Part shown: in pieces, positions 5,802 to 48,376 of the stretch
Layout of the letters: each line of letters begins with the position of its first letter
Position numbering within the stretch: position 1 is the first letter of the stretch
Origin: a virus
Length of the DNA: 64,000 bases
Direction: 5' to 3' (one strand)
IMG/VR virus record: IMGVR_UViG_3300009703_004110
Location: 1-64,000 of that record
Program-made: the position numbers and the translations under genes
Notes under the pieces: generated by a model
Told to the model about the DNA's origin: nothing
The model's input: the letters and a program-made list of their open reading frames with translations, nothing else
The model's database searches: none

Positions 5802-6749
5802 TTATACGTCGAAGTCGATTTCTCCACCAGTATAAGCTATCTCTCCCTGCCACTCAAATGGCCCAAGACTTAATGCGCTGTATTGACCGGCATATTGAGA
5901 GATGCCTGGATACTGAGACGGCCAGTCAATGCCGGCGACAATCTCTTCCAGAGACTCTTTGTGCTTGGCCGTTAGACCGGGGTTCTCTTGCTTCCCACCT
6001 GATGGCTCCGCAACTACTGAGCCAGGAACAGGCTTAGCATTGGTGTCCAACTTAAAGGCAAACTGATAGTTCTTAGCCTGACCTTCAGTTACTTCGTATG
6101 GTAAGCCGAAGCCTTCCGCATTATCATAAAACGGAGACTGCTCGCCAAGCGCTATATATCTCTTATAGAAGTCTTGCTGCTCTCTTGCTGGGTCAGCTGC
6201 TGCAACTACAGTTTTTTTTTCAGCCGATTTGAGAAGTTCATCTATAGTGAGCATGGCTTCAGCCACCGGAGAGCTTCCAGGCTCGCCAGAGAGTCCCTCT
6301 ACACCCCAAGCTGTATATGGCTTAGGCTCCTCTCCTCTCATTTCAGAATAGACGTCTCCACCCAAGTGTAACTGCTGAAGACTTTGTACAATCGGTTCTA
6401 ATTGAGCCAACTGAGCCTTTTCTTCTGGTCCGCCCCATCCCTCATCGATCATATCCTTAAGAGCCTGAACACCCGCCAAAAGATCTTTAACCTTTTCAGT
6501 CGCTTCTGCCTCTAGGTCTCCGCCGCTTTCGCCAGCTAACGGCTCTTCGCCCGGAAGCCCCTCTTCAAGAGGCTCCTCTCCGAATGCTTCTACGGCTGCT
6601 TCGTCCATGCTATCAAAAGGCGTCTGTGAGGCTGTATCGTCCCACTCATCTAGCGCCTTCTTAGCTAACCGATCTGCTATATCCGCTTCTTTGGTAAGTC
6701 CTGCGGCATCCAGATCGTTAGCCAACTTTAATAATTTAACGTGAATCAT
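5802..6749 (-). CDS. 315-aa acidic protein with N-terminal packaging-like module
   Basis: The first 33 residues (core LLKLANDLDAAGLTKEADIA, then DRLAKKA) match the helical module shared by seven proteins of this window. The region 40-110 is very acidic and low in complexity (repeated EEPLEE, GEEPL). The remainder is soluble with no recognised domain. GGAG precedes the ATG by 6 nt. It starts 10 nt after the stop of the SOD-like gene, which also has the module. It is probably a virion-associated or internal head protein, by inference from the module. Confidence 0.7.
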   Translation of the reverse strand: MIHVKLLKLANDLDAAGLTKEADIADRLAKKALDEWDDTASQTPFDSMDEAAVEAFGEEPLEEGLPGEEPLAGESGGDLEAEATEKVKDLLAGVQALKDMIDEGWGGPEEKAQLAQLEPIVQSLQQLHLGGDVYSEMRGEEPKPYTAWGVEGLSGEPGSSPVAEAMLTIDELLKSAEKKTVVAAADPAREQQDFYKRYIALGEQSPFYDNAEGFGLPYEVTEGQAKNYQFAFKLDTNAKPVPGSVVAEPSGGKQENPGLTAKHKESLEEIVAGIDWPSQYPGISQYAGQYSALSLGPFEWQGEIAYTGGEIDFDV

Positions 6750-6759
6750 TATATCTCCA

Positions 6760-7458
6760 TCACTTTAATCTAGTTAGATTTTTTAGTCGTTTATCTGGAT
6801 TACGCCAGTCCATTCTGGACAGCCACCATTCAACATAAGCCTCTTTATCGAGACCAAAATCAGCAAAGTAAGCGTGCTCCCACATATCAAGTGCCGCAAT
6901 AGGGACACTGAAGATTGGAACACCAATTTCGTGCAGGTCAATGACGTCGATGTAAATCATCTTTGTCTTAATGCAATAGTTAACCAGTACCCAACCATTA
7001 CGAGTAAGCTTAGCTGCTCGGGTCAAATCTTTGGTAAAGTCTTTGGCACTTCTAATATATAAGTCACCAAGGTTACCGCTAAGAAACTTAGCTTTTTCCA
7101 TTGGCGTTGGTCTGCTATCATAAACATCTTCAAAATACATTTCATGAAGAAAAACTGCGTTCTCTGCATTGGAGGTACCACGTTGTACTTCGCGAAGCTT
7201 GCCGTAGGCTGGAGTATCTTTCTCATTAGAAGAAAGCAGAGTTTTCTTCTTTTCTTTGGTCAAAGACTCTAGTGCTTTCTGGTACATCTCTGCTAATTCA
7301 TGATGAGCATTGACTGTACTTTGTTGTACACCGCTCTTATGCATTTCAACCTTGGCAGTTTTACGCATATATGTATCAAGAATGTCCACCTCGCTGGACA
7401 TTCCTTGCTCGTCAATACGTGCCAAAGCGTGCAATACTTCTTTAAGATTTTCGCTCAT
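6760..7458 (-). CDS. Superoxide dismutase-like (Fe/Mn family) protein with N-terminal module
   Basis: The ATG at 7458 has AGAGG 8 nt upstream. Residues 1-36 carry the shared N-terminal module (LARIDEQGMSSEVDILDTY). Residues about 45-232 resemble iron/manganese superoxide dismutase: His52/His53 in the first helix, His105 (LHEMYF), then Asp191 and His195 in DMWEHAY, and the C-terminal VEWW...W motif. These would be the four metal ligands. The second-sphere HH pair of typical enzymes is not clearly kept, so catalysis is uncertain. At 232 aa it equals a normal SOD plus the module. Family known role: dismutation of superoxide. A virion or host-injected location is my inference. Confidence 0.8.
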   Translation of the reverse strand: MSENLKEVLHALARIDEQGMSSEVDILDTYMRKTAKVEMHKSGVQQSTVNAHHELAEMYQKALESLTKEKKKTLLSSNEKDTPAYGKLREVQRGTSNAENAVFLHEMYFEDVYDSRPTPMEKAKFLSGNLGDLYIRSAKDFTKDLTRAAKLTRNGWVLVNYCIKTKMIYIDVIDLHEIGVPIFSVPIAALDMWEHAYFADFGLDKEAYVEWWLSRMDWRNPDKRLKNLTRLK

Positions 7459-7693: not shown

Positions 7694-10567
7694 TTACTCC
7701 TCTTCTTCATTGTAAACCCAGGTCTCTTCGGGCAGGTAGATTGTTTCCGATGGATCTTCATCTTCATCACTTGGTAGGAATTCGGATGGAGTTATCCCCT
7801 TCGGATGTCTATTTGAAGGATCAAAGTATACTGGTGTATCACCTCTGTATCCCAGGTTTCCACTGTGAACATCTGTATTATCGGAGATTAACTGAAATAT
7901 CATTGATCGAACAATATCTGGCAACCAGCCCTTGGGAAGAGAAAGTCTTCTTTCTGCTTCTTTAAATACAGGCATAACTTCACCGTATAGACTTGAGCCA
8001 ATAAACTCGCCCACTAAGCCGTTAGTAAAAGTTTCTATATCTTTCATATCAGAATCAGGACCTGGTTTATTAGGTGCCCTCTGGAATGCACCACTGACAA
8101 CAACCTCATTTTGAGAATTTCTTTTGCCACCAAAATATACATTTAGCTTTCCAAAGGCTTTCTTAAATTCTCTCAATAATGACTTAGTTATATTAGACTC
8201 TTCTTTGTCTTCTATGTTCAGATATTTAGCCAAGTCTTTTAGCTGGTCATCATAAGATTTAACCATACTTCTGATTGGATTTAATTTCTCGATTACAACC
8301 CACGACATATTTCTTAGCTTCTTAACATCATATGGCTTCTTAGCTAATGGCACATCGAATATGCCATAGTCGAAAACCATTAGATTGTACTTGCTTCCCT
8401 TCTCTGGATCATGAACAGCTGCCGCCTGTTCTTTGTAATAGTCTAGGTCTTTATCATTAGACATAAGCTTAATCACACGATCATCTTCTGTAGTCCAAGC
8501 ATCGGCATAGCTACCAGATCCAAGAAAGTTTGTAGGCTTGTATCGTTCTAAGACGTCGGCGTTTCTGTTTAAGAAGTCCTTTACCCAGATCTCTTTACTT
8601 TCCCTGCTCTTCTCACCCTTAAACGAAGAAAACATTTCGCCTACTAAATTACCTATCACGGTTTCAGCGGAAAATATCTTACCGTACTCGCCAAACTCTC
8701 CCACTCTTTGTGGAAGTAAGTGCTCTAATCCGTATTGCTTGGCAAGCTCGGGAGTTAATATAGTCTCATCATAAGCGAAGTTTTCTCTGGCTCCATAATC
8801 TAGGTTTCTTCTGATTGGGCCAAGGGCGCTAGATAGAATAGTTTTAAGTCTATTTAGCTTCGCAGTCTTATCCCAGTCTCTAATTTCTGTATATTCTTCT
8901 GGTGCCTCATAAGCTGGAGACGGATTGTATGCATCAAAGAAGACCGGTGTAGTTCCGCGATAGCCCATGTTTTCTGGCTTAGTATCTCGGTGACCTCTAG
9001 TTAGAGACTTGAAGTTAGAAATCATAAAATCTTCAATCCATGATTTTTCTAGGCCATAGTGCTCTATGCCAGCGACTCTTAGTCTTTCTACTGAAAAATA
9101 CTGCTTGCGTCTCGAAGGCCTCTTCATCCATCTTTCGAAATGATGATTAATTCTCTTATCAACTAAGAATTTCGCAATATCTTCGTCAGATGTACTTCTC
9201 GGGATCTCGTCAGAGCCAGAAAGTATTTTGCTCATTGCTCTGGCAAAATCTGATACATAGCCAAGAAGATGATCAAGCGTAGGCTTACCTTGATAGGGAC
9301 TAAATCCAGGCTCTAAGAACTTCCTTGGTGTCTTAAGCTCTTCTGTAACTACCCATCCAAGATCAAAATGCTCTTTCATGTTTTCTTTAATTTCGCGCCC
9401 ATCTAAGCTTAATGGAAGATCTGGCATCCTAAATGGACCAGAATCATAAACTCTAAGGTCTCTCTTATCTCCAGTCTCAGGGTCAAAGGGCACGTCCTCA
9501 AGTCTTTTATATTCTTCCAAGGCTCCGAGCCCACCAAAGATCTTAAAGACTCGTCCATCCTCTAGCTTATAAGCGTGACCATGGGCTCCTGCACCAATGC
9601 TTTCTACTGGCATATACTCTGTAAATATGTCTGAATTAATATCTATGAACCTTTCGATAAAGGCTGCCGGGTTAGTATAGTTTTGTGACAGTTTTAACAA
9701 TGGCTCGGACTGCTCGATTAAATCAAATTGTGGCATTTCACCAAATAAATCATCAGCGTCATTTTGGCCAGGACTAAACGGATCAAAAAATACGGGAGTC
9801 TCGTTTCGATATCCGAGATTCTTAGAACCCAGGGTATCTACTCGTCCTTGTAACATAGAGTACAATAAAGCAATAATGTAGTTCTTTACAGTCTTCGAGC
9901 CCTCTGGAGAATCGTAGCCTTCCGGCTGGACTTCTTCTAATGGATAGAAGGCAATGAATCCTTGGTAAATTATATCTGCTGCTTTAGCCAGATTATCGGA
10001 AGTTATTTCCTTGATAGAGTCTGGATCAAAATTATAAGTGATATAATCATAGATGTTTCGATAGAATTCATCTTCACCAATCCCACCTTGATTCGGTAAG
10101 TATTCCGTTAGAGCCCATCCTAAGAAATCCACTCCTTTTTGCTCTGGAAGCTCGAATTTACCAAAGTCATAAATCTGAATGGTAGATTGTGTAGCGGCTC
10201 CCTGATAAAGCTTGTCAGTTTCTTCCTGATAGAAGCTCATTAGTTTTGGCTCATTAAAGAGCTTCAAGACCCTGCTGTCATCAGTGAGGTAAGCTTCGCC
10301 ATCCGCACCACCTCCAAGTCGTTTAACTGGGGTATGGATAGAGAAGATGGCAGAGTTCAGATCTAGAAATTTTCCAACCCATTGTTCTGCGATATTTTCA
10401 TCCATACCCTGAAGCATACTACCGAATAAGGGCGAATTCTGCACGAGATCAAGTCCAGGCATAATGCCCGAAGATAACTTATATAATGAAACAAGCTCCT
10501 CATCAAGGGACTCTTCTGTTAAGAGCTTTCCAAGATTATATAGTTTATTTGCTATCCTCGTCTTCAC
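7694..10567 (-). CDS. 957-aa protein with three tandem kinase-like domains and N-terminal module
   Basis: Three repeats of a protein-kinase-like fold are visible. Their Gly-rich loops are at about 84-91 (LGGGADGEAY), 324-332 (IGAGAHGHAY) and 683-691 (LGSGSYADAW). The candidate ATP-binding lysines are K102, K342 and K700. The hinges read LTEYL, VTEEL and VIEKL. The catalytic loops end in a shared NxGYRxxTPVxFD block. Domain 2 keeps HRD (526-528), N533 and D545. Domain 3 has D899, H901, N904 and D916. Domain 1 has lost the HRD. The N-terminal 30 residues are a diverged form of the shared module. Its ATG overlaps the stop of the 86-aa gene. A virion-borne, host-modifying kinase is inferred; pseudokinase activity is possible. 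Confidence 0.75.
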   Translation of the reverse strand: MKTRIANKLYNLGKLLTEESLDEELVSLYKLSSGIMPGLDLVQNSPLFGSMLQGMDENIAEQWVGKFLDLNSAIFSIHTPVKRLGGGADGEAYLTDDSRVLKLFNEPKLMSFYQEETDKLYQGAATQSTIQIYDFGKFELPEQKGVDFLGWALTEYLPNQGGIGEDEFYRNIYDYITYNFDPDSIKEITSDNLAKAADIIYQGFIAFYPLEEVQPEGYDSPEGSKTVKNYIIALLYSMLQGRVDTLGSKNLGYRNETPVFFDPFSPGQNDADDLFGEMPQFDLIEQSEPLLKLSQNYTNPAAFIERFIDINSDIFTEYMPVESIGAGAHGHAYKLEDGRVFKIFGGLGALEEYKRLEDVPFDPETGDKRDLRVYDSGPFRMPDLPLSLDGREIKENMKEHFDLGWVVTEELKTPRKFLEPGFSPYQGKPTLDHLLGYVSDFARAMSKILSGSDEIPRSTSDEDIAKFLVDKRINHHFERWMKRPSRRKQYFSVERLRVAGIEHYGLEKSWIEDFMISNFKSLTRGHRDTKPENMGYRGTTPVFFDAYNPSPAYEAPEEYTEIRDWDKTAKLNRLKTILSSALGPIRRNLDYGARENFAYDETILTPELAKQYGLEHLLPQRVGEFGEYGKIFSAETVIGNLVGEMFSSFKGEKSRESKEIWVKDFLNRNADVLERYKPTNFLGSGSYADAWTTEDDRVIKLMSNDKDLDYYKEQAAAVHDPEKGSKYNLMVFDYGIFDVPLAKKPYDVKKLRNMSWVVIEKLNPIRSMVKSYDDQLKDLAKYLNIEDKEESNITKSLLREFKKAFGKLNVYFGGKRNSQNEVVVSGAFQRAPNKPGPDSDMKDIETFTNGLVGEFIGSSLYGEVMPVFKEAERRLSLPKGWLPDIVRSMIFQLISDNTDVHSGNLGYRGDTPVYFDPSNRHPKGITPSEFLPSDEDEDPSETIYLPEETWVYNEEEE

Positions 10568-10824
10568 CTACCTGCTCTCCAGTGTCTTTTGTACCAACGT
10601 TCCATAACTATTATCGCATCTTCAATCTCAGACTCTTGCTCTTTTACTTTTTTCATGATAATCAAGACAGATTCGACTTCCTTAATTATTCGCAAGATTT
10701 GTTTGCACCGCTCCCTTTTACCCGGTATAGCCATAATGTGCGCCCACCGCGTATCCAGATTGCGCGCATAACGCATTGCGTCTGCTCGGTTTATCGGGTA
10801 TTTTATCTGATGAAGGTTCTTCAT
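10564..10824 (-). CDS. Hypothetical 86-aa helical protein
   Basis: The protein is small, basic and largely helical, with a charged coiled-coil-like stretch in the middle (IIKEVESVLIIMKKVKEQES). I placed the start at ATG 10824; a GTG 12 nt upstream is possible. The stop overlaps the ATG of the triple-kinase gene (ATGA), suggesting coupled synthesis, perhaps as a partner or chaperone. No family is recognised. It is divergent from the gene at 10939. Confidence 0.6.
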   Translation of the reverse strand: MKNLHQIKYPINRADAMRYARNLDTRWAHIMAIPGKRERCKQILRIIKEVESVLIIMKKVKEQESEIEDAIIVMERWYKRHWRAGR

Positions 10825-10938
10825 GTTGCTGGTCACCAGTAAGATGTTGCGTGTTCATTTGGGCGCATCCTTTGTAATTAAATAGTACCTATCTTGCTAT
10901 CAAATATTAATAGTAATTGTTTATTAGGGAGAATATGT

Positions 10939-11451
10939 ATGTCAGAATGGCAAACATCGAAATTAAAATCGCACACAATACGAGATTTAAGTCAAAACGT
11001 ATATTCGTTTGACGAATTTATTGAATCATTAAAAGAGCACAACGAACAAGGTTATGATACCTTCGTTGGTACCGACTCACAAATTCATAAGGGCCAGATC
11101 CACATTGCAACTTGTGTAGCCTTTGTACGTAGAGATAAGCCAGACATAGGCGGAGACAGATCCGGTCAGGTATTCTACATTAAGGAGAAAATCTCGCGTA
11201 GAGATTATCCAAATCTACGCATGAGAATGATGCTAGAGGCATACAGGTCTTTAGAGGTTGCAATGGAGATAGAACAATATGTTACTGAAACTCTTAGTGT
11301 TCACCTTGATATTGGGCCTAATCCTAGGAAGTCTAAGACCTCCGCATTTAAGGTAGAGCTAACCGGCATGATCAAGGGTCAGGGCTATGAAGTAGCTATC
11401 AAGCCTGACGCTTGGTGTGCTTCCGGTGTAGCCGATCGAGTATGTCGTTAG
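10939..11451 (+). CDS. YkuK/DUF458-family (RNase H-like) protein
   Basis: The ATG at 10939 is preceded by AGGGAGAATATGT. The protein (170 aa) matches what I know of the DUF458/YkuK family: FVGTDSQ near the start, the block RMRMMLEAYRSLEVA, then VHLDIGPNPRKSKTSAF and the C-terminal KPDAWCASGVADRV. The family has a predicted ribonuclease H-like fold with conserved acidic residues, and its biochemical role is not established. It stands alone on the plus strand with its own terminator, which suggests independent expression. Confidence 0.8.
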   Translation: MSEWQTSKLKSHTIRDLSQNVYSFDEFIESLKEHNEQGYDTFVGTDSQIHKGQIHIATCVAFVRRDKPDIGGDRSGQVFYIKEKISRRDYPNLRMRMMLEAYRSLEVAMEIEQYVTETLSVHLDIGPNPRKSKTSAFKVELTGMIKGQGYEVAIKPDAWCASGVADRVCR

Positions 11452-12096: not shown

Positions 12097-12432
12097 TTAC
12101 TTTCCTGGCGCGAAGCTCATACCGCACCCACAGGATTTAGAGCCTGGAACATTAAACTTAAATCCACCATTAACAATATCGTCTGAAAAATCTATCTCCA
12201 TTCCATTTAGATAAAGATATGATTTTCTATCAACTACAATTGACTCTTCTGTCTCTTGATCTACGACAACCAGTCTATCTCCTTCTGAAATCTGGCTGGT
12301 TATTTCTACTTCATACATAAATCCAGAGCAACCTCCTCCACGTAAGGCAACCTTTAAGTGGCCGTCCGGCATTTGAAGTTGATTTCTGAGGCTAGCGATT
12401 TTTGCTAGCGCATTAGCTGTAGCTGTGATCAT
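12097..12432 (-). CDS. A-type iron-sulfur cluster carrier (IscA/ErpA/HesB family)
   Basis: This 111-aa protein has the full family signature: Cys35 in RGGGCSGF and the C-terminal Cys101-Gly-Cys103 (SKSCGCGMSF), which bind iron or an Fe-S cluster. The length equals the bacterial family norm. Known role: accept and deliver Fe-S clusters to apo-proteins. A second Fe-S protein (NifU C-terminal type) lies 2 kb upstream in the same leftward set. Possible clients in the phage are not evident. It shares one base with the gene before and has 2 nt to the next start. Confidence 0.9.
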   Translation of the reverse strand: MITATANALAKIASLRNQLQMPDGHLKVALRGGGCSGFMYEVEITSQISEGDRLVVVDQETEESIVVDRKSYLYLNGMEIDFSDDIVNGGFKFNVPGSKSCGCGMSFAPGK

Positions 12433-14387: not shown

Positions 14388-14633
14388 TTACTCCGCAAAT
14401 TCGGCATTCTCCACAACTAATTCATCATTTTGAAAATGTTCTATCATGTAATTTTGAATCTGAAACAGCGTTGCTCCTAAAGATGAGGGACAGCCTGCGC
14501 AGCCCCCGTGAAAAGAAAGTATTACCCTATTCTCTTCAACTCTTGATAGTGACACAAATCCATTATGAATGGCCAAAGAAGGATTGATTTCTTCTTGCAA
14601 TAATTCATTTACATTTTTGTTATTTAATTCCAT
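14388..14633 (-). CDS. NifU C-terminal-type (Nfu) Fe-S scaffold protein
   Basis: This 81-aa protein consists of a single NifU C-terminal domain with the CxxC motif at Cys45 and Cys48 (GGCAGCPSS) and the following amphipathic helix. Known role: assemble or carry a [4Fe-4S] cluster bridged between two monomers. Together with the A-type carrier at 12097-12432 it forms a two-part Fe-S maturation set in a phage-like genome. It is a stand-alone domain, as in Nfu proteins, with no IscU or IscS visible. Confidence 0.85.
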   Translation of the reverse strand: MELNNKNVNELLQEEINPSLAIHNGFVSLSRVEENRVILSFHGGCAGCPSSLGATLFQIQNYMIEHFQNDELVVENAEFAE

Positions 14634-14657: not shown

Positions 14658-15236
14658 TTATAGATAGGACTTATTAAGTTCGTCGCTAAATATTTCAAAT
14701 AAAGAGCGAGACTCTCTGTCTTTTTCGCTCAACCTCAAGTCTTTCATCCAGCTATTGATAATCTCAGTTCCTTCTTCTAAGTTAGAATAAGCCTCTGGCC
14801 TAGCCTCGATTTCTATAACGTCCCTGCCATCTTCTAACGTATAAAATGATACATCGCAATCTTCAAAGTGATAGATCCAAGCCTTCTTGGTAACTGTGAA
14901 TTGGAATTCATAATTTGCTAGCTTTAAGAAATCTACTACATTCTCTTCAGGATTGCCCAAGACGTTGATATCAACTTCTTTTCTGCATGAATTACCATTT
15001 ATCTTTCTCTTAATGGTTATTTCAGCGTATGGGTTTCCACTTCTTAAAGAGACGCCTTTTCTGTGCCTCAGGAAGCCCTGATGCCCGCTACTGGTGTAAT
15101 AGTCATCTTCTGATATTACAACCTTTGGAACCAAGGTTTCTTCAGCAAGGTTCTCTACGATCTCATGAAACTGGCGTCTATTGACGTGAGCCCAGAACTT
15201 ATATTCGATCTCAGTATTTATTTTAGTATTAAACAT
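14658..15236 (-). CDS. CYTH-domain (triphosphate tunnel) protein
   Basis: I chose ATG 15236 (MFNTKINTEIEYKF), preceded by AAGGATG. The longer open frame would overlap thymidine kinase. The N-terminus carries the ExExK signature (EIEYK), followed by FLRHRKG, AEITIKRK, a CRKEVD strand and IEIEARPEA, consistent with the CYTH/TTM superfamily barrel. Family members hydrolyse thiamine triphosphate or tripolyphosphate, or make cAMP. Which applies is unknown. The protein is 192 aa, within family range, and lies 10 nt downstream of the thymidine kinase gene. Confidence 0.75.
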   Translation of the reverse strand: MFNTKINTEIEYKFWAHVNRRQFHEIVENLAEETLVPKVVISEDDYYTSSGHQGFLRHRKGVSLRSGNPYAEITIKRKINGNSCRKEVDINVLGNPEENVVDFLKLANYEFQFTVTKKAWIYHFEDCDVSFYTLEDGRDVIEIEARPEAYSNLEEGTEIINSWMKDLRLSEKDRESRSLFEIFSDELNKSYL

Positions 15237-15246
15237 AATCATCCTT

Positions 15247-15807
15247 TTATAACATGGAGGCTTGAGGGTGGTGCTTATAACACCTTGGCTCATACATTTC
15301 TGAGCCTCCCACCTCAATTTCTCCGGACGCCTTTTCGCCTGCACCTTCGAACTTGAAGGTGAAGTGTGCGTCTTCATAACACTCAGTTACGCCACATATA
15401 GAGCTACATTTATAAATCTCTGTGGCATAAGGCATTATGAGTGCAATGTCTGGAAATGGTTCCAGGCTTGATGAGAGATCAAGAGAGGAAACCAAAACAA
15501 TCTTATCTTGAGCATATAGGCTTAGAATTTCTGAGCCAATATTCTTAATCATGAATGCTTCGTCAATTGCTATGACATCATAAAGTTCAGGATTGAGCTT
15601 TCTAATATCAAAAAGATTCTTTACGCTTACAGCTTCCAGGGATATTCCTGTATGTGTACATACGTGTGTCTCTGAGAATCTACCATCTACCTTGGGTTTG
15701 AGTAGAAGGATTTTCTTGTTCTTATATCTATATCTATCTAATTCTGCTAAAACGCTTGTTGTCTTTCCCGAGAACATCGGGCCAACATAAAGAGCTAATC
15801 TTGCCAT
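15247..15807 (-). CDS. tdk: Thymidine kinase (type II)
   Basis: This 186-aa enzyme has a P-loop GPMFSGKTT at residues 9-17, the DEA-type Walker B with the catalytic Glu83 (AIDEAF), and paired Cys (CSSIC; later CYKHH) for the structural zinc. Reaction: phosphorylation of thymidine to dTMP, supplying the dTTP pool for phage DNA synthesis along with RNR and dUTPase. The length matches bacterial and T4-type enzymes. It overlaps the upstream 75-aa gene by 13 nt. Confidence 0.93.
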   Translation of the reverse strand: MARLALYVGPMFSGKTTSVLAELDRYRYKNKKILLLKPKVDGRFSETHVCTHTGISLEAVSVKNLFDIRKLNPELYDVIAIDEAFMIKNIGSEILSLYAQDKIVLVSSLDLSSSLEPFPDIALIMPYATEIYKCSSICGVTECYEDAHFTFKFEGAGEKASGEIEVGGSEMYEPRCYKHHPQASML

Positions 15808-19187: not shown

Positions 19188-19430
19188 TTATTCCGGAGCT
19201 TCTCCCAGGCTGTCACCCAGCGCGGTAAAAACCTCTCTCAGGATCTTCAATTCTTCTTCCGGTATTTCTATCGAATCCGGCAGACCTGTTGCTCCCTCTA
19301 AGTTAATATCATCAAGAGCGCCTACTTCTGCTTTTTTATAAGCGATAATTAAATTGGTTACAAAATCTGCATCCTCGGCCAATCCCGCCCTGTCTAAATT
19401 ATCTGCAATCTTTACTAATCTTTTAATCAT
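19188..19430 (-). CDS. Hypothetical 80-aa protein with N-terminal packaging-like module
   Basis: I chose ATG 19430 (MIKRLVKIADNLDRAG) because GGAG lies 9 nt upstream. The first 35 residues are one of the clearest copies of the module (IADNLDRAGLAEDADFVTNL). The rest is acidic with Glu- and Leu-rich helices. With only about 45 residues outside the module, it could be a small internal head protein, inferred from the module alone. Confidence 0.65.
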   Translation of the reverse strand: MIKRLVKIADNLDRAGLAEDADFVTNLIIAYKKAEVGALDDINLEGATGLPDSIEIPEEELKILREVFTALGDSLGEAPE

Positions 19431-19449
19431 AACTTTAAACTCCAAATAA

Positions 19450-25866: not shown

Positions 25867-26044
25867 TATTTAACCTCGTTCGTAAAGAAATTAATTGCGT
25901 TATTATGGTATCTAGATGTTCTTTCTTCAAAGTTACAGATATTAAATAACTTTCTTTACCTTGCTTTGTTTTAATACCCATTCGGATGGCATTGCCATCT
26001 TTTTCGATAATCATATAACTATCTGAATTAAGTGTTATTTTCAT
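25850..26044 (-). CDS. Hypothetical 64-aa protein
   Basis: The start at ATG 26044 overlaps the lysozyme stop (ATGA). This is a small beta-rich protein (KITLNSDSYMIIEKDGNAIR, MGIKTKQGKESYLISVTLKK) with a terminal helix. No domain is recognised. Confidence 0.55.
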   Translation of the reverse strand: MKITLNSDSYMIIEKDGNAIRMGIKTKQGKESYLISVTLKKEHLDTIITQLISLRTRLNNVEED

Positions 26045-26712
26045 CCGGTCCCGCCCTTCCACATTGCCGCCTCTGCGGCTCTCCTTTTTTGGTGACCAGG
26101 AGAAGAAACAAATGCCACTGGTATTAGATTTCCAGCACCAGTTAAATCGCCTGAATTAATTAACTTCAGAAGTTTTGACCTGGAGATTGTTCCAACTCCA
26201 GTGTTGTATATTATACTAACTAATGCATTAACTTGATTGGTATTTAATGGCGTTGTCACATTTCTCTTAATAAAGCCGAGAACTTTATCCATGTCTTTAG
26301 TCAGATACTGATCGGCCTGTGATTTGGTAATTCTCATTGGACTAGTTTGCCCAACTTTACCGTGCCTATGACCATATCCAATTGCCCACCAACCACCATC
26401 ATCATATGATTCCAATCGAAGGCCTTCAAATTTCTTAATCATATTAGCGCCCTCCTGATCATAAGCGGCTTCCGCATTAGGATCTGGAACTTCTATTATT
26501 TGGCCGATCTGTAATTTAGTCCAATCAAGATCAGGGTTTGCATTCTCAATCATTCTTTGATAAACTGGATTACCACCAGAGATACTCCAGGCCGTATCTC
26601 CCGATTTGATTGTATATGTTTTTGCTGTTTTCAAAAAAGAAAAGAGAAGACGGGCCTCTTTATGAAGCCCCTCTTCTCTTAAATATTGGTATAAACCTTC
26701 TAGCTTTTTCAT
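26041..26712 (-). CDS. Lysozyme (GH24) with LysM and N-terminal packaging-like module
   Basis: Residues 1-31 carry the shared module (LEGLYQYLREEGLHKEARLL). A LysM domain follows (about 33-77: YTIKSGDTAWSISGGN, LQIGQIIEV). A T4/P22-type GH24 domain lies from about 88 on (KKFEGLRLESYDD; WWAIGYGH). The catalytic Glu and Asp are present, but the Thr of the family triad (WTIGYGH) is Ala. It would cleave the peptidoglycan glycan strand. The LysM targets the wall. The module suggests it is packaged in or attached to the virion rather than a plain late endolysin. No holin is adjacent. Confidence 0.85.
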   Translation of the reverse strand: MKKLEGLYQYLREEGLHKEARLLFSFLKTAKTYTIKSGDTAWSISGGNPVYQRMIENANPDLDWTKLQIGQIIEVPDPNAEAAYDQEGANMIKKFEGLRLESYDDGGWWAIGYGHRHGKVGQTSPMRITKSQADQYLTKDMDKVLGFIKRNVTTPLNTNQVNALVSIIYNTGVGTISRSKLLKLINSGDLTGAGNLIPVAFVSSPGHQKRRAAEAAMWKGGTG

Positions 26713-26746: not shown

Positions 26747-29125
26747 TTACATCACTTTTGCAGCAAAAGTTGCTAACTTACTCCTTTCTCCCCTAACTAG
26801 GGTTATATGCCCAGAGCCTTCAAATTCTTTAAATTTGTCAACTACGACGCCCAAGCCAGATGTTTTTATGTTTAATTTATCAGAATCTATCTGGTCCAAA
26901 TCTCCAAGTAATACAATCTTTGAGTTATTGCCCATTCTTGTAATTAAAGCTTTGGCTTCTTTCATATTGATATTCTGAGATTCATCAATAATAAAATAAG
27001 TATTAGGAAGCGTTCGTCCCCTAATATAAGATAATGCTTCGATTTCAATCTGACCTTTCTCGAACATCAGATTGATATAACCACCGCCATGTTTTCCTAA
27101 TAGAACTTTAATATTGTCCATCACAGGCTGTAACCAAGGCAACATCTTTTCTTCTTTGGTTCCAGGCAAAAAGCCGATCTCCTTAGAAGTACTTTCTGCG
27201 GGACGAGATATGATTATCTTTTCATAAGTACCAGCTTGAAGCTCCTGCAAACCTGCAGCAATAGCAAGCAAAGTATTATGTGTTACAATATAATCATCTG
27301 TAATATACAGATGATCTTTGCTGTCGATCATGATGCATTGAGTCTCTTTCTTTGAAAGCTTATCGATTTTATCAATATATTTTCTAAGATTAACAGAACT
27401 CGTTGGACGCCACCTATTAGCCTTTCTTGATAATAAAAATGGACAAAATTCTTTAGAAAGTGAAATGGTTACTCTAAAAGACTCTTTACCTATTTTGGTT
27501 CTTCCTTTGTATTTATAAGTAGTAAATCTACTATTTACAGTTGCTTTGCCACCTAACGAACGAACAATTTCTGCCAAGTCATTTGCAAGCTTGGCAGATG
27601 TACTAGTAAATGTTGATTTTAAACCAGATTTGGTCACTGTGCCGTCTGTATCCATCAAGCCTCTGATTATAGACAATCTATCTCCTACGGATGATAGCTT
27701 ATAATCCTTTGGAATAAACTTATCTTCAGAACCTAAGCCCTGTAATTTAAGCTCAGATAAAAACTCTTTTAGTGGATTTGCAAAATTATTTCTTTTGTTT
27801 CCATCTTTAGTAATCCTATAATCATATTTCGAACCATTTATTTTTGAAATCTTACACCCAATTGACGGTAAGTAATCTGCAAAAAAATCTAAAATTTCAT
27901 TATCTGCCGATGATAAACATGGTGAACCAGATTTTATATATCCGTCTCCAAGTAAACATCCTAATATATATGGATCAATTTTTAACTCTTTAAAATCAAA
28001 CTCTATAGGAGATACAATTGGAATTGAGTGATTTCTTTTTCCATTTTTATTTCTCAAGGATTTTGAAATCTCTTCTAAAGATTTAACTTCACCTTTTCTA
28101 TTATAATCACGATCTCTCTGAGTTCTTGTTAGCCATAAATGTTCTATACATGACTCTGCAGATGTACCATCAGAAAATGTTATCTTATAGACATCCTTTT
28201 TTCCCTGCGGAAATACCCCAATAACATTAGCCATAGATCCGTCCGGTGTTAATACTTTACTTCCAAGCTTAATATCGCCCATTTTAACCCAACCATCTGG
28301 TGTTAAAATTCTCGAATAAAGAGGCTGCGCTTTTCCGCACCCCGCCATGCCAGTTAAGGTCACCATTGAAATACCGGGATCTAATAGCAATTCTAAAGCA
28401 AGAGTTTGCTCTTTATTTCTCGGTCTAATACCCTGAACTTTAAACTTTTTAGTAGAGCCGGCATAATGTAGCTTTCTCCAAATGCCATCTGTCCAGACCC
28501 TTGCTAGAGCGCTTTGCTGCCCTGACTTTAAAATTAAGAATTCATTTGAATAGTAGACGTCATCTAGATCAAATTCTTTCGGATCTATTTCTCCTTCTGC
28601 ATAAAAAGTATCTATAATTGACTCTTCAACCGCTAAGGTATGGACTCCGGTGAACTCACCTTCTTCTCTTTGCGCGATTAAATCTGATATACAGCAACAA
28701 TCAATCTTAAGCGCATCACACTTAACTCGTAAAGCAATATCCTCACTGACCAAGGTTACATTATCAAATACAGCCTTTGACTGCTTGGCTACTGCAATAA
28801 TTCTATTATCGACTATATCCTTCATATTTGGCGGAAGGACTGATAAATCTGATGTTGATATAACAAAGATTCTTGAATTATTTTGGGTAATGACACCCTT
28901 AAAAATACTTCCAGTCTTTCTTAGCGCATCAAGCCTTCTATTTACCTGCCTCGCTGAGGCGCCAGTGACATCTCTATATGTTTTAAGTTTGTCAAGCTCC
29001 TCCAAGACTTCTAGTGGAATATAGATGTCGTGGTCTTGTATGACATCTGTTAGTTCTGGAAACGCTATAAGTGATGAGGTATCAACTACTAAAATAGCCC
29101 TTCCTAATGCTGAGCTTTTACTCAT
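26747..29125 (-). CDS. phoH: PhoH-like ATPase with N-terminal PIN domain, split by an intein
   Basis: The N-terminal 150 residues form a PIN-type RNase domain (ILVVDTSSLIAFPEL, conserved acidic residues). The C-terminal part is a PhoH ATPase with Walker A GMAGCGK^T and FIIDESQNI as Walker B. The intein (residues 266-617) is inserted between the Lys and Thr of the P-loop, so the host protein is about 440 aa, the size of PIN-PhoH (YlaK-type) proteins. Proposed role: RNA helicase/nuclease. PhoH is common in phages but its function there is unclear. An intein in the P-loop means ATPase activity depends on splicing. Confidence 0.9.
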   Translation of the reverse strand: MSKSSALGRAILVVDTSSLIAFPELTDVIQDHDIYIPLEVLEELDKLKTYRDVTGASARQVNRRLDALRKTGSIFKGVITQNNSRIFVISTSDLSVLPPNMKDIVDNRIIAVAKQSKAVFDNVTLVSEDIALRVKCDALKIDCCCISDLIAQREEGEFTGVHTLAVEESIIDTFYAEGEIDPKEFDLDDVYYSNEFLILKSGQQSALARVWTDGIWRKLHYAGSTKKFKVQGIRPRNKEQTLALELLLDPGISMVTLTGMAGCGKAQPLYSRILTPDGWVKMGDIKLGSKVLTPDGSMANVIGVFPQGKKDVYKITFSDGTSAESCIEHLWLTRTQRDRDYNRKGEVKSLEEISKSLRNKNGKRNHSIPIVSPIEFDFKELKIDPYILGCLLGDGYIKSGSPCLSSADNEILDFFADYLPSIGCKISKINGSKYDYRITKDGNKRNNFANPLKEFLSELKLQGLGSEDKFIPKDYKLSSVGDRLSIIRGLMDTDGTVTKSGLKSTFTSTSAKLANDLAEIVRSLGGKATVNSRFTTYKYKGRTKIGKESFRVTISLSKEFCPFLLSRKANRWRPTSSVNLRKYIDKIDKLSKKETQCIMIDSKDHLYITDDYIVTHNTLLAIAAGLQELQAGTYEKIIISRPAESTSKEIGFLPGTKEEKMLPWLQPVMDNIKVLLGKHGGGYINLMFEKGQIEIEALSYIRGRTLPNTYFIIDESQNINMKEAKALITRMGNNSKIVLLGDLDQIDSDKLNIKTSGLGVVVDKFKEFEGSGHITLVRGERSKLATFAAKVM
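27275..28330 (-). mobile_element. Intein in PhoH (class 3-like, LAGLIDADG)
   Basis: The intein spans residues 266-617 (352 aa). It starts with Ala (AQPLYSRILTPDGWV) and ends VTHN before Thr. It lacks the usual Cys/Ser at position 1 but has Trp in EHLWL (block B), Cys in TQCIMID (block F) and Thr before the terminal His-Asn (block G), the WCT set of class 3 inteins. Two dodecapeptide-type motifs, LGCLLGDGYI and IRGLMDTDG, mark a LAGLIDADG homing endonuclease. The insertion site is the P-loop GCGK^T. Confidence 0.85.
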
Positions 29126-29510: not shown

Positions 29511-32500
29511 TTAAAACTCTATAGTGCATGTGGCCCCATCACAAAACTTGTCCTCTTTCTCGTGGACGCTAAAGCTTAAATCAATATCTTTTAGATTGCT
29601 AGATAGTTTCAAGTATTCTTCTCTAGAAATAGTCTCGTAAGGTGCCAATTTATATCCGTGGTCATTCAATGGTAGGAAACTTATGGACTTTAGTCTGGTC
29701 TCATACATAGAAAGTGCTGTAGAAATTTGCTTAGCCTCAGTCTCGTTGAATGTAATTGTGGCAGAAACTTGATTATCAGCCCAGTATCTTTGCATCTGAG
29801 CTACTAACTCTAATTGCTCCCACATACTAGCATCATACTTAGACTTAACAAAATTCTCTATGTAAATAGGAAAGTCAACGACCATAGAGTCTGGTTGATA
29901 AGGGCATGGGTTTACCTGATGTCCTGCCTCAATACATGCCGGAATAATAGGAGAGTCTTTCTGAATTCTAATTCTTCTAATATAGTATTCGCTATGATCA
30001 AAATGAACACCAGGAGAAACACCTGGCAAGAGAGAGACTGTACCACTCGGCTTAACAGATGTCATTTTAATAGAGCGAGGTACGCAAAGCCAGTCGCTAT
30101 ATTTCTTGTCCAATCCTCTAATTCTATCGTATCCACTATCACACCATTCCATATGAGCACGGTACCCAACTTTTGCAATATTATTTTGGATACCAGACTG
30201 AGAGCAACCAATTCTTCTATTACGCATCATTACCGCATTAGTACGTGGGTCGTGCGTTGGAAGTAGTGTGACCGTTTTGGCATATAAATATGCGTACTTA
30301 AGGGTCGCCAGATAATCCTCAAGGCTTTCGTGATTAACAGGGAAGGTCTCGACTAGACAGCATAACTCAAAGCTCTCTAGCGTTTGCTCAGAACAGTTGT
30401 GAACAATAATTCCATTTGCCCCAAATCTATGTACTTCATCAATAGTACAATCATATACCTTTTCAATACCAATATAAGTAACCGACTCTACTTCTGCAAC
30501 AAATCTTTCTCTATTTAGAGTTCGTCTATAATCATTCATTCTAAGTCGTAATTTATCATTTCTTTCCATTTCATCAAAATTAATCTGTAATAAAAAGTGT
30601 GATAAATTATCATTACTAATTACTAATTCATGCATAGCATTACATTCATATAGTTTATATCCACTTTTTCCATCTGGTAGCAACCGCTTTCCAGCTTCGC
30701 GCCTATTTCTATAAACTGTTGAATTAACTCCAAAATTAAGTAACATTTTTTGAATAATTAATAAATGCTGCTCGTTTGCTAATCCTATTCTAACCGAAAG
30801 TCCCTTGGTTTGAGTGCCCTGAACTGAGCCATCTGCATCAAAAAAGCCACGTAAAAACCCTGCTTGAAATTTAGATGATGTACATAATAAGGTGCTTTCA
30901 TTTATTATATTTTTTTCATGATCAATTCCATAATCTATTGCTTTTTCCCAAAGTTGCCGACTTTTAATTGAGACCATATCTTTTGAATCTATATTACACC
31001 CATTTCTATTAGAGTGATACCTAGGATCTCCCCCCAAGGTCTTTGTTCTTTCTATAGCAAGATTAAGCATATCATTTTTTGTAGATCCCCAATATTGCAA
31101 AATTCCTGATTTTTGCTCTTTATGAAAATATCCATCTCCTAGCAAGCCACCCAATAACCATCCTTCATTAAATGAGCCATCGCCTTCCCAGCTAATAAGA
31201 TTATTTTCATTATATCTTGTGTCATTTAATATCAACTTATCACCAGCATCTAAATCACCAGCTTCTACCCATAATTCATATCGCTTTTTTCTTGTAATTT
31301 TTGGAGCAGTTAATATCTTGTGATCTTCGGTTACTTTAATAGAATGTCCTTCTTTTGTTTTAACCAAATATACTGGCTTTGTTCCTGTTTCAAAAACACC
31401 GGTTTTACAGTTATATTTTTTTCCATTGACTATAGCTATAAATGGTTTATCAAGCATTTCATCTGCTCTAACAGGTCCTTCTTCTGTAAAAATTAAGGTA
31501 TCTCCGGTAATACATGGGTTGGCACCCTCTGCTCTCCTATCTTTCCAGTTAGGTGGCTCCATCATACGACCGTAAGCTCTAGCGTTATGAAGCCACATAA
31601 ATCCAGGCTCGCCATTTACTTTGATCATATCAGCAAACTTAGAATAATCTATCCCAATTTCTGCAAAAATAGAATTATTAGAGGCCCAACGACGATCTTC
31701 TAAGGCTTCTTTGTTAAGTTTTAAAGATCTAAACTCTTTATCTTCGGGAGATCCGAACATAATTTCGGCAATTCTGCGCACATTACCTGCAACAACACAT
31801 TTGCCGACATAATTAAAGATGTCCACAATTTGTGTTGAATTAATCTCATAAGGTGTGAACTCTTGTATCTCAATAGAAAAAGATAAAGGCTCTGGGCGTT
31901 CTGTTTCTGACATAACTGTAGTAGGTGTAATTTTAGTATCGTTTGGTACCAAAACAGAGATTATATTCTCATGCAAATTTCTTAATGGGCCGGCACCAGA
32001 CGCAGTTCCACCGAATCCTCTAATTGGGGCTCCGTATGGTCTAATTTTAGAATAATTAAAAACTGGAATAGAGCCTCTTCCGACAAAGGCATCCAATAGA
32101 ACTCTAACAGATTCTACCCAGCCTTCTCTTGTGTCAGGGATTACCCATTCCGCCTGTGCCATTTTCGGTGTTTTAATAGTAACAAGGCCGGCACCTTTTA
32201 CATCTCCACCGACACCAACTCCAAGCATTGACATATCCATAAGAAACGTAAATGGTGAGGCAAAGTCTGATGAAATATCCTTAGTACTTGTGAAAGCGCA
32301 ATTATTTAAAGCAGCACTTCCCATTTTCCATATTTGAGGAACCCCCATCATCCAAAGTCCGCGTCCTGGTGGAAGAAATTTAAACTCCCACATTCTAGTA
32401 AACATTTCTTGAGCACTTCTTTGTGATTTATGAGCATTCCAAGGCAGCCTTAGTCTTTCACAGTGTGACCTCTGAATATTATAAACACCTTCAACAACTC

Positions 32501-32675
32501 TTTGGCAAGTTTGCCAAAATTCTTCGGTTCTCCCGGACTCTTCATCAATTACTCTAGCGTAAGTTCGCTTATAAGTAACATATCCGAGCGGGCCCCACTT
32601 CGGTTGCTGGTCTATAAAGTTCGACATGAACTTGGTAGACAGCTTAAACGGGTTCGCTGGAAAAGACAGCATCAT
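29511..32675 (-). CDS. nrdJ: Class II (B12-dependent) ribonucleotide reductase, split by an intein
   Basis: The extein is 681 aa, like monomeric adenosylcobalamin-dependent ribonucleoside-triphosphate reductase. Readable motifs: LNNCAFTST (redox Cys), NP^CSEQTLESFELC (radical Cys and Glu), the PSGTVSLLPGVSPGVH loop, and the C-terminal CDGATC pair. Reaction: reduction of NTPs to dNTPs using adenosylcobalamin, independent of oxygen. The intein occupies 388-760, at the active-site Pro-Cys. GGAGG precedes the start. The end of the sigma-like gene overlaps by 32 nt. It supplies the dNTPs for the replication genes elsewhere in the window. Confidence 0.92.
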   Translation of the reverse strand: MMLSFPANPFKLSTKFMSNFIDQQPKWGPLGYVTYKRTYARVIDEESGRTEEFWQTCQRVVEGVYNIQRSHCERLRLPWNAHKSQRSAQEMFTRMWEFKFLPPGRGLWMMGVPQIWKMGSAALNNCAFTSTKDISSDFASPFTFLMDMSMLGVGVGGDVKGAGLVTIKTPKMAQAEWVIPDTREGWVESVRVLLDAFVGRGSIPVFNYSKIRPYGAPIRGFGGTASGAGPLRNLHENIISVLVPNDTKITPTTVMSETERPEPLSFSIEIQEFTPYEINSTQIVDIFNYVGKCVVAGNVRRIAEIMFGSPEDKEFRSLKLNKEALEDRRWASNNSIFAEIGIDYSKFADMIKVNGEPGFMWLHNARAYGRMMEPPNWKDRRAEGANPCITGDTLIFTEEGPVRADEMLDKPFIAIVNGKKYNCKTGVFETGTKPVYLVKTKEGHSIKVTEDHKILTAPKITRKKRYELWVEAGDLDAGDKLILNDTRYNENNLISWEGDGSFNEGWLLGGLLGDGYFHKEQKSGILQYWGSTKNDMLNLAIERTKTLGGDPRYHSNRNGCNIDSKDMVSIKSRQLWEKAIDYGIDHEKNIINESTLLCTSSKFQAGFLRGFFDADGSVQGTQTKGLSVRIGLANEQHLLIIQKMLLNFGVNSTVYRNRREAGKRLLPDGKSGYKLYECNAMHELVISNDNLSHFLLQINFDEMERNDKLRLRMNDYRRTLNRERFVAEVESVTYIGIEKVYDCTIDEVHRFGANGIIVHNCSEQTLESFELCCLVETFPVNHESLEDYLATLKYAYLYAKTVTLLPTHDPRTNAVMMRNRRIGCSQSGIQNNIAKVGYRAHMEWCDSGYDRIRGLDKKYSDWLCVPRSIKMTSVKPSGTVSLLPGVSPGVHFDHSEYYIRRIRIQKDSPIIPACIEAGHQVNPCPYQPDSMVVDFPIYIENFVKSKYDASMWEQLELVAQMQRYWADNQVSATITFNETEAKQISTALSMYETRLKSISFLPLNDHGYKLAPYETISREEYLKLSSNLKDIDLSFSVHEKEDKFCDGATCTIEF
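30396..31514 (-). mobile_element. Intein in RNR (class 1, LAGLIDADG)
   Basis: The intein spans residues 388-760 (373 aa). It starts with Cys1 (CITGDTLIFTEEG), has a block-B His (EDHKIL), and ends VHN before Cys+1 of CSEQ. LAGLIDADG-type motifs are LGGLLGDGYF and LRGFFDADG. Splicing restores the active-site Cys. This insertion point is a known hot spot in class II RNRs. Confidence 0.9.
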
Positions 32676-36917: not shown

Positions 36918-38822
36918 TTAGTTCCGTGCCATTAGAGAGCTAACGTAACGTAGAAGCTGGTTGGCGCTTGCCGCTGTGTATCCATGCTTTTCGCATAAGA
37001 CTTCTACTACTCCATTAACTCTTTTTAGCTCATTAGCATCAGGGTTTCTAGAACTTACGGTCAATCTAATTACATCCTGTCTCTCATCAAAAAGCTGCTT
37101 CTCTAAAGCCTCACGGAGATGTGGGTGATCTTGGTAGCGATATTCGCCATGATTTTTGAGGGAGCGAAGCATTTTTCTATAGATCTCTTGGCGGAAAGAG
37201 GTTTTGCCATTTTCAGATATCTGAATCTTCTCCTCAACGGAGCGCATTAGTCTCTCATCTGGCTCAGCAGGATTGCCCCACTCATCTTCTAGCTCAGTTC
37301 CATCTAGGAAAGCCTCCACTTGCTCTAGGTAATTCTTCAGAAGATTGCCGATTTCCTGTTCGAAGTTAACAAAGAAAGCCTTCTGAACGTCGTTACGGGC
37401 CATCTTGTTGTACTCTTCAATAATTAGAACCAATAAGGCCTCCAGCCTTTCAGTTTCAGCTCTGTCAATCTTGGGATTAGATTCAAACCCGTCCCTCAAT
37501 GATCTTACGATATCGATTGGAGTAACGAAGGTCTTGCCGTTAGCCAGTTCGGATGAGATACGATTGATTACATATCTCGGTGAAATACCTGACATTCCTT
37601 CGCTAGCGAATTCGCCCTTGAACTTACCGCTCTCTGAAACAGTAAAGCCTTCTACTTCCTCACCGTTGTAAAGCCTCATTTTGTTCAGTAGGGTTAGTCC
37701 TTGATTTGAAGATGTCTTTAGGCGAGATAGAACCGCCAACATTGCGGCACACTTTAGGGTATGCGGTGCAAGATGCCTCTCTCCAAAGTTTGCCTGCGAG
37801 ATTAGCTTCTCATAAATCTTGACCTCTTCGTCAACCTGAAGATTATATGGAACTCTTACCACGATTGTTCTGTCATGAAGCGCTTCCATTTCATCTTTTG
37901 CCAAGAATCGGTTATATTCTGTCTCATTAGTGTGAGCTAAAATGAACTCGTCTGCATAAATTAATGGAAATCTTCCAGTCTTAATGTTCTTTTCTTGTGC
38001 TAAGGTTAGAAGAACATACAAGAACTTCTGATCAACCTTTAGCATCTCTACGAACTCCATCATTCCTCGGTTGGCTACATTTAACTCTCCGTCAAATCTG
38101 TAGGCTCTAGGGTCTGATTCTGCTCCATAAGTCCCAATAGTACTCAGATCTAATGAGCCAACTAATTCGGAGATATCTTGGCTCTTCTTATCTGATGGTA
38201 CAAAGGTTCCGATGCAAGCTCGGTCTAATTCTGAAATAAAGACTCTGCGCACTGGCATAGAGAGGAAGTCACCGTCATATTTCTCTTTCAGGTGCAATGC
38301 CATGAGCGGGCTCAATTGGCCTTGTATATTTACGCCGTATCGGTCTTTGAAAGTTTGTCGTAACTCGACTGGGATGGCCGTTAACGGATCTTCGTACATT
38401 GGTGAATCTTCTAAGGCGTAAAGTGCGCCGGCGTCTGTTTTGGAGTAGGCCTCCAATCCTCTTTTTAGCAAAATAGCCAACTGTGATTTACCCGATGATG
38501 TTGGTCCGTAAAGTAGTAATATTCTTCGGCCAACTTCACTCCCAGCCGCGGCAGCTCTAAGATAAGACATAATATGTTCAATTGGAACATCAATACCAAA
38601 CAAATCTTCTTCAAAGAAATTATAGCTGGTTATATTACCATCATCATCTTTTTCAACACCATGAGATTCAATCATCTCTAAAACTCTCTGGTGTGCGTTT
38701 TTATGAAGGCCTGGATTTTCAGTAATTAACTGAACATAATCCTTTAAAGTTCCTTCCCATGCTGTTACGTCGTTATGTTCGACGTGACTTTGCAATAATT
38801 CAAATAGTTCAGTCTCAGCCAT
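36918..38822 (-). CDS. prkA: PrkA/YeaG-family serine protein kinase (AAA+)
   Basis: I chose ATG 38822 (GGAGATAGA upstream), giving 634 aa against about 640 for E. coli YeaG. Walker A GPTSSGKS is at 106-113, followed by the PrkA-specific AAA+ segment (MYEDPLTAIPVELRQTFKDR) and a C-terminal kinase-type region. PrkA proteins phosphorylate themselves and target proteins and, with YeaH and SpoVR, act in starvation and stress responses. The strong length conservation argues for a working enzyme. It is the first gene of the leftward trio. Confidence 0.92.
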   Translation of the reverse strand: MAETELFELLQSHVEHNDVTAWEGTLKDYVQLITENPGLHKNAHQRVLEMIESHGVEKDDDGNITSYNFFEEDLFGIDVPIEHIMSYLRAAAAGSEVGRRILLLYGPTSSGKSQLAILLKRGLEAYSKTDAGALYALEDSPMYEDPLTAIPVELRQTFKDRYGVNIQGQLSPLMALHLKEKYDGDFLSMPVRRVFISELDRACIGTFVPSDKKSQDISELVGSLDLSTIGTYGAESDPRAYRFDGELNVANRGMMEFVEMLKVDQKFLYVLLTLAQEKNIKTGRFPLIYADEFILAHTNETEYNRFLAKDEMEALHDRTIVVRVPYNLQVDEEVKIYEKLISQANFGERHLAPHTLKCAAMLAVLSRLKTSSNQGLTLLNKMRLYNGEEVEGFTVSESGKFKGEFASEGMSGISPRYVINRISSELANGKTFVTPIDIVRSLRDGFESNPKIDRAETERLEALLVLIIEEYNKMARNDVQKAFFVNFEQEIGNLLKNYLEQVEAFLDGTELEDEWGNPAEPDERLMRSVEEKIQISENGKTSFRQEIYRKMLRSLKNHGEYRYQDHPHLREALEKQLFDERQDVIRLTVSSRNPDANELKRVNGVVEVLCEKHGYTAASANQLLRYVSSLMARN

Positions 38823-38823
38823 T

Positions 38824-39120
38824 CTATCTCCGATATTTGTATGGATTTGGCGTATCGCCATATATAGAGTCTATAGTGTTTTGGTTGCCAGCCTTTATTT
38901 TGTCTACAGTTTTTCTAACGCCTTCTTTGATTTCGTCGATTATCTCGGAAGAATCTTTGTCGACTTTATTGGAAATACTGCCTAGCTTATGAAATAGTAC
39001 CCCGTTCTCGCACTGCGAACACTCTTTTTTTTCTTTCTTCTTTTTCACGAACTCAGATATGGTCATGTTCTGAGTGCCTATAAAATCACATTCTGAGCAT
39101 CCAAAAGTATATTTAGGCAT
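38824..39120 (-). CDS. FmdB-like zinc-ribbon protein (98 aa)
   Basis: The start at ATG 39120 (MPKYTFGCSECDF) fits the FmdB-type zinc-ribbon beginning MPxYxxxCxxC, with the second Cys pair in KKECSQCENG. The C-terminal half is charged. The function is probably regulatory or nucleic-acid binding, as in other zinc-ribbon proteins. It overlaps the upstream 62-aa gene by 8 nt and precedes prkA by 1 nt. Confidence 0.6.
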   Translation of the reverse strand: MPKYTFGCSECDFIGTQNMTISEFVKKKKEKKECSQCENGVLFHKLGSISNKVDKDSSEIIDEIKEGVRKTVDKIKAGNQNTIDSIYGDTPNPYKYRR

Positions 39121-44114: not shown

Positions 44115-44774
44115 ATGTTTGGACAACTTGATGCCCTATATTCTATATTGATAATCGAAGGCTTATATTCTGAAGCTTTAGATCTTTTATGCTTAGTCAA
44201 GGAAGCAGGAAGTTCAAAGATAATAAGTGATTATGAAGAAGGCGAAAGTATGGGGCGTAGTGGAGAAGGTCGTCAAAGTATGTCTCCGGAAAAAAGAGAG
44301 TTTCTTTGGGACCTAATAGAAGCTATTTTAACACATCTTGGAAAATCTCTCGATACAGTTAATGGTACTGACTTTGTTCCTTCTGGCCTTAAAGCTACTA
44401 GATATACTGCCATAGCAATAGACTTACTTCGTAACCCTGATATTAAAGCAGTCGCTGATCAATATAATTTTAATATGAATATAAAAATCATGTACATAAT
44501 GAAGGCTATTAGTTTTATTGCAATGGACATTGTTAAAAAAATGTATTTGAAAAATCCATCTATACCGCTTAAAGAGGCCAAAGAGAGACTTGCAGAGCGC
44601 GGATTTTTATACAGCACAATTACAGCTGTTCGTTTTCTTAAACTCGCGCCCGATTATCAAAATATATATTTGGTAGAACGTGACTTTGAAGATGCTTCAG
44701 AATCATTCTTACTTAGATATGCAGAGAAGCTTGCTGAGCAAGACCCAGAAGCTCCCGTAACAGCAAAAGAATAA
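44115..44774 (+). CDS. 219-aa protein with N-terminal module; possible frameshift donor
   Basis: Residues 1-32 (ALYSILIIEGLYSEALDLLC) are a copy of the N-terminal module. The rest is helical with a repeat-like look and no recognised domain. It ends VTAKE with TAA at 44772-44774. A -1 shift at GCA-AAA (44763-44768) would enter the frame of 44879-45523 with no stop, giving about 469 aa. It is probably a virion or internal head component by virtue of the module. Confidence 0.65.
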   Translation: MFGQLDALYSILIIEGLYSEALDLLCLVKEAGSSKIISDYEEGESMGRSGEGRQSMSPEKREFLWDLIEAILTHLGKSLDTVNGTDFVPSGLKATRYTAIAIDLLRNPDIKAVADQYNFNMNIKIMYIMKAISFIAMDIVKKMYLKNPSIPLKEAKERLAERGFLYSTITAVRFLKLAPDYQNIYLVERDFEDASESFLLRYAEKLAEQDPEAPVTAKE

Positions 44775-48316: not shown

Positions 48317-48376
48317 GCGTTCTCCATACCTAGATTTTACTCTAGGCACGAAGAAATGCTTGAATTTATATGTAAA

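Follow-up and report, generated by a model that had tools for sequence, protein, structure and literature searches.

From T7-like phages, kinases of the T7 gp0.7 kind are known in single-domain form; these rewire the host and shut down its defences. The gp0.7 homolog JSS1_004 phosphorylates numerous host and defence proteins, and it inactivates defence complexes (PMC12345140). The locus described here lies in the window, by which we mean the whole stretch of 64,000 nucleotides that was analysed (bases 1-64000 of a 332,270-bp virus record, hence of a jumbo phage), and encodes a protein with three tandem kinase-like domains, D1 to D3 (Table 1). The gene coordinates and the length of 957 aa given in an earlier, sequence-only reading were correct. 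The GTG start codon overlaps the TGA stop codon of the small upstream ORF, which likely reflects translational coupling, and this start is supported because the ortholog in the related phage record G002 has an ATG start codon at the corresponding position. Residues 1-266 are ~40% identical to the G002 counterpart, and after D3 only an acidic tail of ~27 residues remains.

Table 1. Coordinates of the kinase locus, of the domains of the three-kinase protein and of the proteins bearing the helical tag described in the text.
Feature	Coordinates	Strand	Remarks
Three-kinase protein	7694..10567	-	957 aa, GTG start
N-terminal region, residues 1-54	10406..10567	-	conserved with G002
Kinase-like D1, residues 55-275	9743..10405	-	K102, loop RVDTLGSKN
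Kinase-like D2, residues 298-560	8888..9676	-	K342, Hanks-like loop HRDTKPEN, FFDA
D2-D3 linker, residues 561-657	8597..8887	-	kept in G002 although D2 is not
Kinase-like D3, residues 658-930	7778..8596	-	K700, gp0.7/APH-like loop DVHSGN, YFDP
Small ORF (90 aa) upstream of kinase gene	10564..10836	-	counterpart in G002
RNase H-like gene	10894..11451	+	PF04308 E 1.1e-27; divergent; conserved locus edge
Fe/Mn superoxide dismutase (SOD)-like gene	6760..7458	-	PF02777 E 2.9e-12; tag E 4.5e-11
Tagged protein downstream of SOD-like gene	5802..6749	-	independent tag profile 2.9e-8
Tag bearers in the window	5802-6749, 6760-7458, 19188-19445, 26041-26712, 44115-44774, 52157-56314		
Tag bearers in sister phages	L105-L110		

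The three copies of a Gly-rich loop, a Lys and an NxGYRxxTPVxFD block that the sequence-only reading had reported were all found. The Gly-rich loops read LGGGADGEA, IGAGAHGHA and LGSGSYADA, the residues K102, K342 and K700 are the Lys of VLKLF, VFKIF and VIKLM, and the blocks are NLGYRNETPVFFD, NMGYRGTTPVFFD and NLGYRGDTPVYFD, each copy also containing a hinge-like WxxExL. The copies are 23-28% identical, and pairwise blastp (E-values of 3e-18 for copies 1 and 2, 2e-13 for 1 and 3, and 7e-21 for 2 and 3) rules out chance resemblance; by this comparison, they are homologous. When the three domains were aligned with four more from three related proteins, the GxG, the Ala after the loop, the β3 Lys, WxxExL, the catalytic Asp, the Asn and the Asp of FD were invariant across all seven, and as aligned these are the residues of a kinase active site. 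A pattern of catalytic loop plus DFG occurred 17 times in the 513 ORFs of the fetched loci, against 0.7 times per composition shuffle; 16 of these 17 occurrences fell in the kinases described here or in one kinase-like fusion, several being the same gene in overlapping loci.

It had also been claimed that HRD is kept only in the second domain. This is true of the literal letters, but the catalytic Asp is present in all three copies (VDT, HRD and TDV), so that it would be wrong to regard the catalytic residue as lost from copies 1 and 3. The loop of copy 2, HRDTKPEN, is that of Ser/Thr kinases, and the loop of copy 3, NTDVHSGN, has the form seen in T7 gp0.7 (SFDMHSGN). In copy 1 (RVDTLGSKN) the spacing between Asp and Asn is 6 rather than 5, with the same additional residue in D1 of G002. 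Because of this shared extra residue copy 1 may be inactive, and it is possible that D1 is a pseudokinase, though its Lys and Asp residues remain. The Gly of DFG is absent from all copies, which carry FFDA, FFDP or YFDP at the metal site, and the αC Glu position is variable in the domain alignment. As every copy stops shortly past the DFG equivalent, leaving few residues after the metal Asp, the lower C-lobe of Hanks-type kinases appears to be missing, in agreement with the one domain model that was obtained.

This AlphaFold2 model, of D3, was computed from a seven-row alignment and has a mean pLDDT of 72.3 and a pTM of 0.68. It consists of two helices, β1-β2-β3, αC, β4, a hinge strand and a helical lobe, followed by the helix preceding the catalytic loop and two short strands that flank the metal Asp; confident structure ends at residue 262 and the lower C-lobe helices are missing. 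Foldseek against the PDB matched the model to Mps1, ERK7 and APH(2''), and all 50 of the listed VIA-align rows were kinases (best Z 9.0, rmsd 3.5, 134 aligned residues). In BFVD, the best match was the uncharacterised phage protein A0A6J5RHA2 (E 1.2e-8, TMq 0.50), and among the further matches were annotated phage kinases, one of them from Ralstonia phage RSB1. Since Z-scores of 8-9 are modest by themselves, the kinase call rests on the agreement of the model with the invariant catalytic residues in their expected order; on this basis, a kinase fold of D3 is well supported. The full-length model reached a pLDDT of 43 and was discarded as evidence, leaving D1 and D2 without confident models, and these two domains are assigned the kinase fold by homology to D3. 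The three tandem kinase-like domains of the earlier reading are thus retained, with the fold checked for the third and extended to the others. A fold unrelated to kinases, which had been named as the outcome that would count against the reading, is not what the D3 prediction returned.

Searches of curated collections did not recover the protein. Neither the whole protein nor its domains matched Pfam, including PF00069 and the aminoglycoside phosphotransferase profile, and there was no match in PADLOC. The PDB sequence search gave sub-threshold N-lobe matches only, and PHROG gave no strong match. Relatives were found neither in 50,697 phage records, nor in direct scans of viral contigs, nor in 84,980 species genomes, and our literature search turned up no description of phage kinases in tandem, in line with the earlier remark that this layout is not known from phages.

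The window encodes a PrkA/YeaG-type serine kinase at 36918-38861 (-) (AAA_PrkA 7e-115, PrkA C-terminal 1.4e-65), which is a second kinase of the phage, unrelated to the three-kinase protein. With this gene 39 viral loci were found, and their whole records were then searched with a profile of the three domains; the genome-wide statements made here rest on such profile searches. Relatives were detected in three jumbo phage records only (G002, G003 and G011), and in no cultured phage or bacterial genome. G002 (335 kb) encodes an 886-aa two-domain protein adjoining a 507-aa one-domain protein, and G003 and G011 encode a 504-aa one-domain protein of identical sequence. A seven-domain profile revealed no further relatives in 22 records. 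Copies 1 and 3 are 41-42% identical to their G002 counterparts, and in a tree of the seven domains D1 grouped with D1 (support 94/95), no other grouping being resolved.

The gene order RNase H-like, kinase(s), SOD-like is kept in the window, in G002 and in G003/G011, and in every locus seen to carry the kinase gene(s), the SOD-like gene is the next downstream gene. The SOD-like protein (6760-7458) contains a DMWEHAY motif conserved in three phages. In a more distant phage (L068) the same edge genes are present and the kinase is absent. In the two-domain G002 protein (L059:5807-8467 (+)), residues ~300-490 fill the D2 slot with a kinase-unrelated sequence, which had no Pfam match; a D2 remnant was sought in G002 and not found. 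From these comparisons, kinase modules seem to have been gained and lost at one fixed locus.

Other genes of the phage include a Tubulin/FtsZ-family GTPase (49003-50424 (-); PF00091 4e-15, TubZ-like C-terminus), a family that occurs in PhuZ-bearing jumbo phages, and Hint/LAGLIDADG intein or homing-endonuclease insertions at 26747-29125, 29511-32675 and 45851-48349 (-), the proteins bearing them being a PhoH with a PIN domain, a B12-type ribonucleotide reductase and a UvsW-like helicase. Iron-sulphur assembly genes lie at 12097-12432 and 14388-14633 (-) (A-type carrier, PF01521, and NifU domain, PF01106), with a NifU_N protein encoded in the sister phage G009 (L107:1076-1480 (-)). The products of 14658-15377 and 48377-48910 (-) are a CYTH-domain protein and a member of the fatty acid hydroxylase family.

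The closest sequence link leads to the gp0.7 kinases. The kinase of Aquamicrobium phage P14, which matches PHROG 15752 at 5e-16, was aligned with our family profile from the P-loop to the hinge (E 3e-4). An alignment of seven gp0.7 members scored 32.0 against the family profile; none of 60 column shuffles exceeded 20.9, and the reversed comparison gave 11.7. A gp0.7 profile matched copy 3 with a whole-sequence E of 9.5e-5 for a database size of 1. Against gp0.7, the N-lobe and the catalytic loop also scored above shuffles when taken separately, in a test that is biased by our own choice of the regions. Judged from these scores, the window protein is probably a distant relative of the gp0.7 kinases. 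It was not filed as a member because the PHROG 15752 profile gave an E of 0.23 for D3, its best kinase match in PHROG, and none for D1 and D2, and because no counterpart of the C-terminal host-shutoff region of gp0.7 was found in it.

We consider it fairly probable, by analogy to T7 gp0.7 and JSS1_004, that the protein is a kinase that modifies proteins inside the infected cell and serves to take over the host or to counter its defences, and host targeting is plausible on the same grounds. A minimal kinase domain of the gp0.7 kind, comprising an N-lobe, a hinge, one helical lobe, a catalytic loop and a DP-type metal site with almost nothing more, would have been expanded to three tandem copies. 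D2 and D3 would bind Mg-ATP and phosphorylate Ser/Thr, possibly Tyr, of infected-cell proteins, the unlike catalytic loops of D2 (HRDTKPEN) and D3 (DVHSGN) suggesting different substrates or efficiencies, and D1, if weak or inactive, may serve as a regulatory or docking module. It is unlikely that the whole protein is an array of pseudokinases that transfers no phosphate and serves as a scaffold, its domains binding nucleotide or partner proteins. The additional loop residue of D1, common to G002, would fit such an array, as would the variable αC Glu, the missing DFG Gly and the unrelated sequence in the D2 slot of G002; however, the Lys, the catalytic Asp, the Asn and the metal Asp are invariant in 7/7 domains at 23-42% identity, a pattern not easily accounted for unless the domains are catalytic.

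The proposed kinase might also act mainly on the phage's own proteins, in the control of assembly or replication, rather than on the host. The PrkA-type kinase of the same phage makes phospho-regulation of phage processes conceivable, and the conserved linkage to the SOD-like gene would fit as well, but the characterised relatives of the gp0.7 type act on host proteins (PMC12345140), and we regard this alternative as very unlikely.

Many proteins of this jumbo phage clade that are otherwise unrelated carry a helical tag of ~30 residues (L..LA..LD..GL.KEAD.LD.LI..A). In one search with E up to 1, we counted 9 tag stretches in this genome, 12 in G002, 17 in G013 and 25 in G009, mostly N-terminal and sometimes internal or C-terminal; a query with the tag consensus matched none of 50,697 phage records. 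The bearers include lysozymes, an ArdC-like protein and the SOD-like protein adjoining the kinase. An 854-aa protein of G009 (L108:1591-4155 (-)) consists of a tag, a PG-binding domain, a phage lysozyme, a second tag and a kinase-like C-terminus, WSDVHANNLMQRPGSREPVIIDVG, whose assignment is at the level of motifs and weak matches only. A tag-rich cluster of G013 encodes a 499-aa protein (L110:5682-7181 (-)) that is ADP-ribosyltransferase-like by eye, with no Pfam match. The tag looks like a targeting or docking peptide, and delivery with the DNA would suit it because of the lysozymes, ArdC-like and SOD-like proteins among its bearers. T4 proteins with capsid targeting sequences are delivered with DNA in this way (PMC5694885).

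The sequence-only reading had proposed that the kinase is carried in the virion. A tag on its N-terminus was suggested by eye, and profiles that included the kinase scored it by construction, but the likeness was gone without the kinase rows: a kinase-free tag profile matched the N-terminus of none of the four kinase proteins. The same profile found six other bearers in the window at 3e-9 or better (own rows included), and an independent tag profile from G009/G013 found two window bearers clearly (3e-8 and 7.5e-8) and not the kinase. Carriage in the virion is therefore unsupported for this protein. More generally, an effector kinase that is packaged and, like T4 Alt, enters the cell together with the DNA would agree with the tag on the neighbouring proteins (SOD-like and 5802-6749) and on many others of the clade, and with the joining of tags, lysozyme and kinase-like region in one G009 protein. 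The lack of a tag match on the kinases, the internal and C-terminal positions of the tag elsewhere and the failure to find T4-type gp21 and gp23 families argue against it, and we hold it to be highly improbable; the absence of the T4-type prohead protease and capsid (PF03420 and PF07068) is a weak one, as no control genome scored above the cut-off. A broader scheme, in which an inactive D1 controls two active, differently targeted domains, modules are gained, lost or swapped (one to three copies, lysozyme-kinase fusion) and the protein is delivered with the tagged proteins, is decidedly unlikely as a whole. A small-molecule kinase of the aminoglycoside phosphotransferase type has a negligible chance, since the resemblance of the D3 loop DVHSGN to APH loops and the Foldseek match to APH(2'') are countered by the Ser/Thr-kinase loop HRDTKPEN of D2, by the best 50 VIA-align rows, all protein kinases, and by the sequence link to gp0.7.

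Within the collections searched, such a three-domain version in jumbo phages would be the first case of a phage kinase expanded in tandem. A jumbo phage kinase with a likely inactive copy and two apparently intact ones would offer a tractable system for how phages widen the range of their kinase targets. Phage kinase counts are likely too low, because divergent minimal kinases of large phages escape Pfam and mostly PHROGs.

In comparison with known systems, the structures of Hanks-type kinases (Mps1/TTK, ERK7, CDKL1, PLK4) share the topology of the N-lobe and catalytic loop with the window protein at Z 8-9, and HRDxKPEN with D2, whereas the window protein lacks the Gly after the metal Asp, the lower C-lobe helices (in the D3 model) and a Pfam kinase match. 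The phage proteins A0A6J5RHA2 and A0A8D9CDZ1 from BFVD are the best structural matches and cover most of the D3 model at no more than 16% identity. With the T7 gp0.7 type (PHROG 15752; T7 gp0.7, JSS1_004, P14) the protein shares the LGxGxxxxA loop, VIKh and a short hinge, and D3 and its relatives likewise have the DxHSGN loop and DP in place of DFG with little afterwards; D2 instead has HRDTKPEN...FDA and D1 a longer loop. The window protein is too distant from this type for direct tblastn or curated-profile calls, and it differs in its setting, a jumbo phage, and in carrying three domains per chain.
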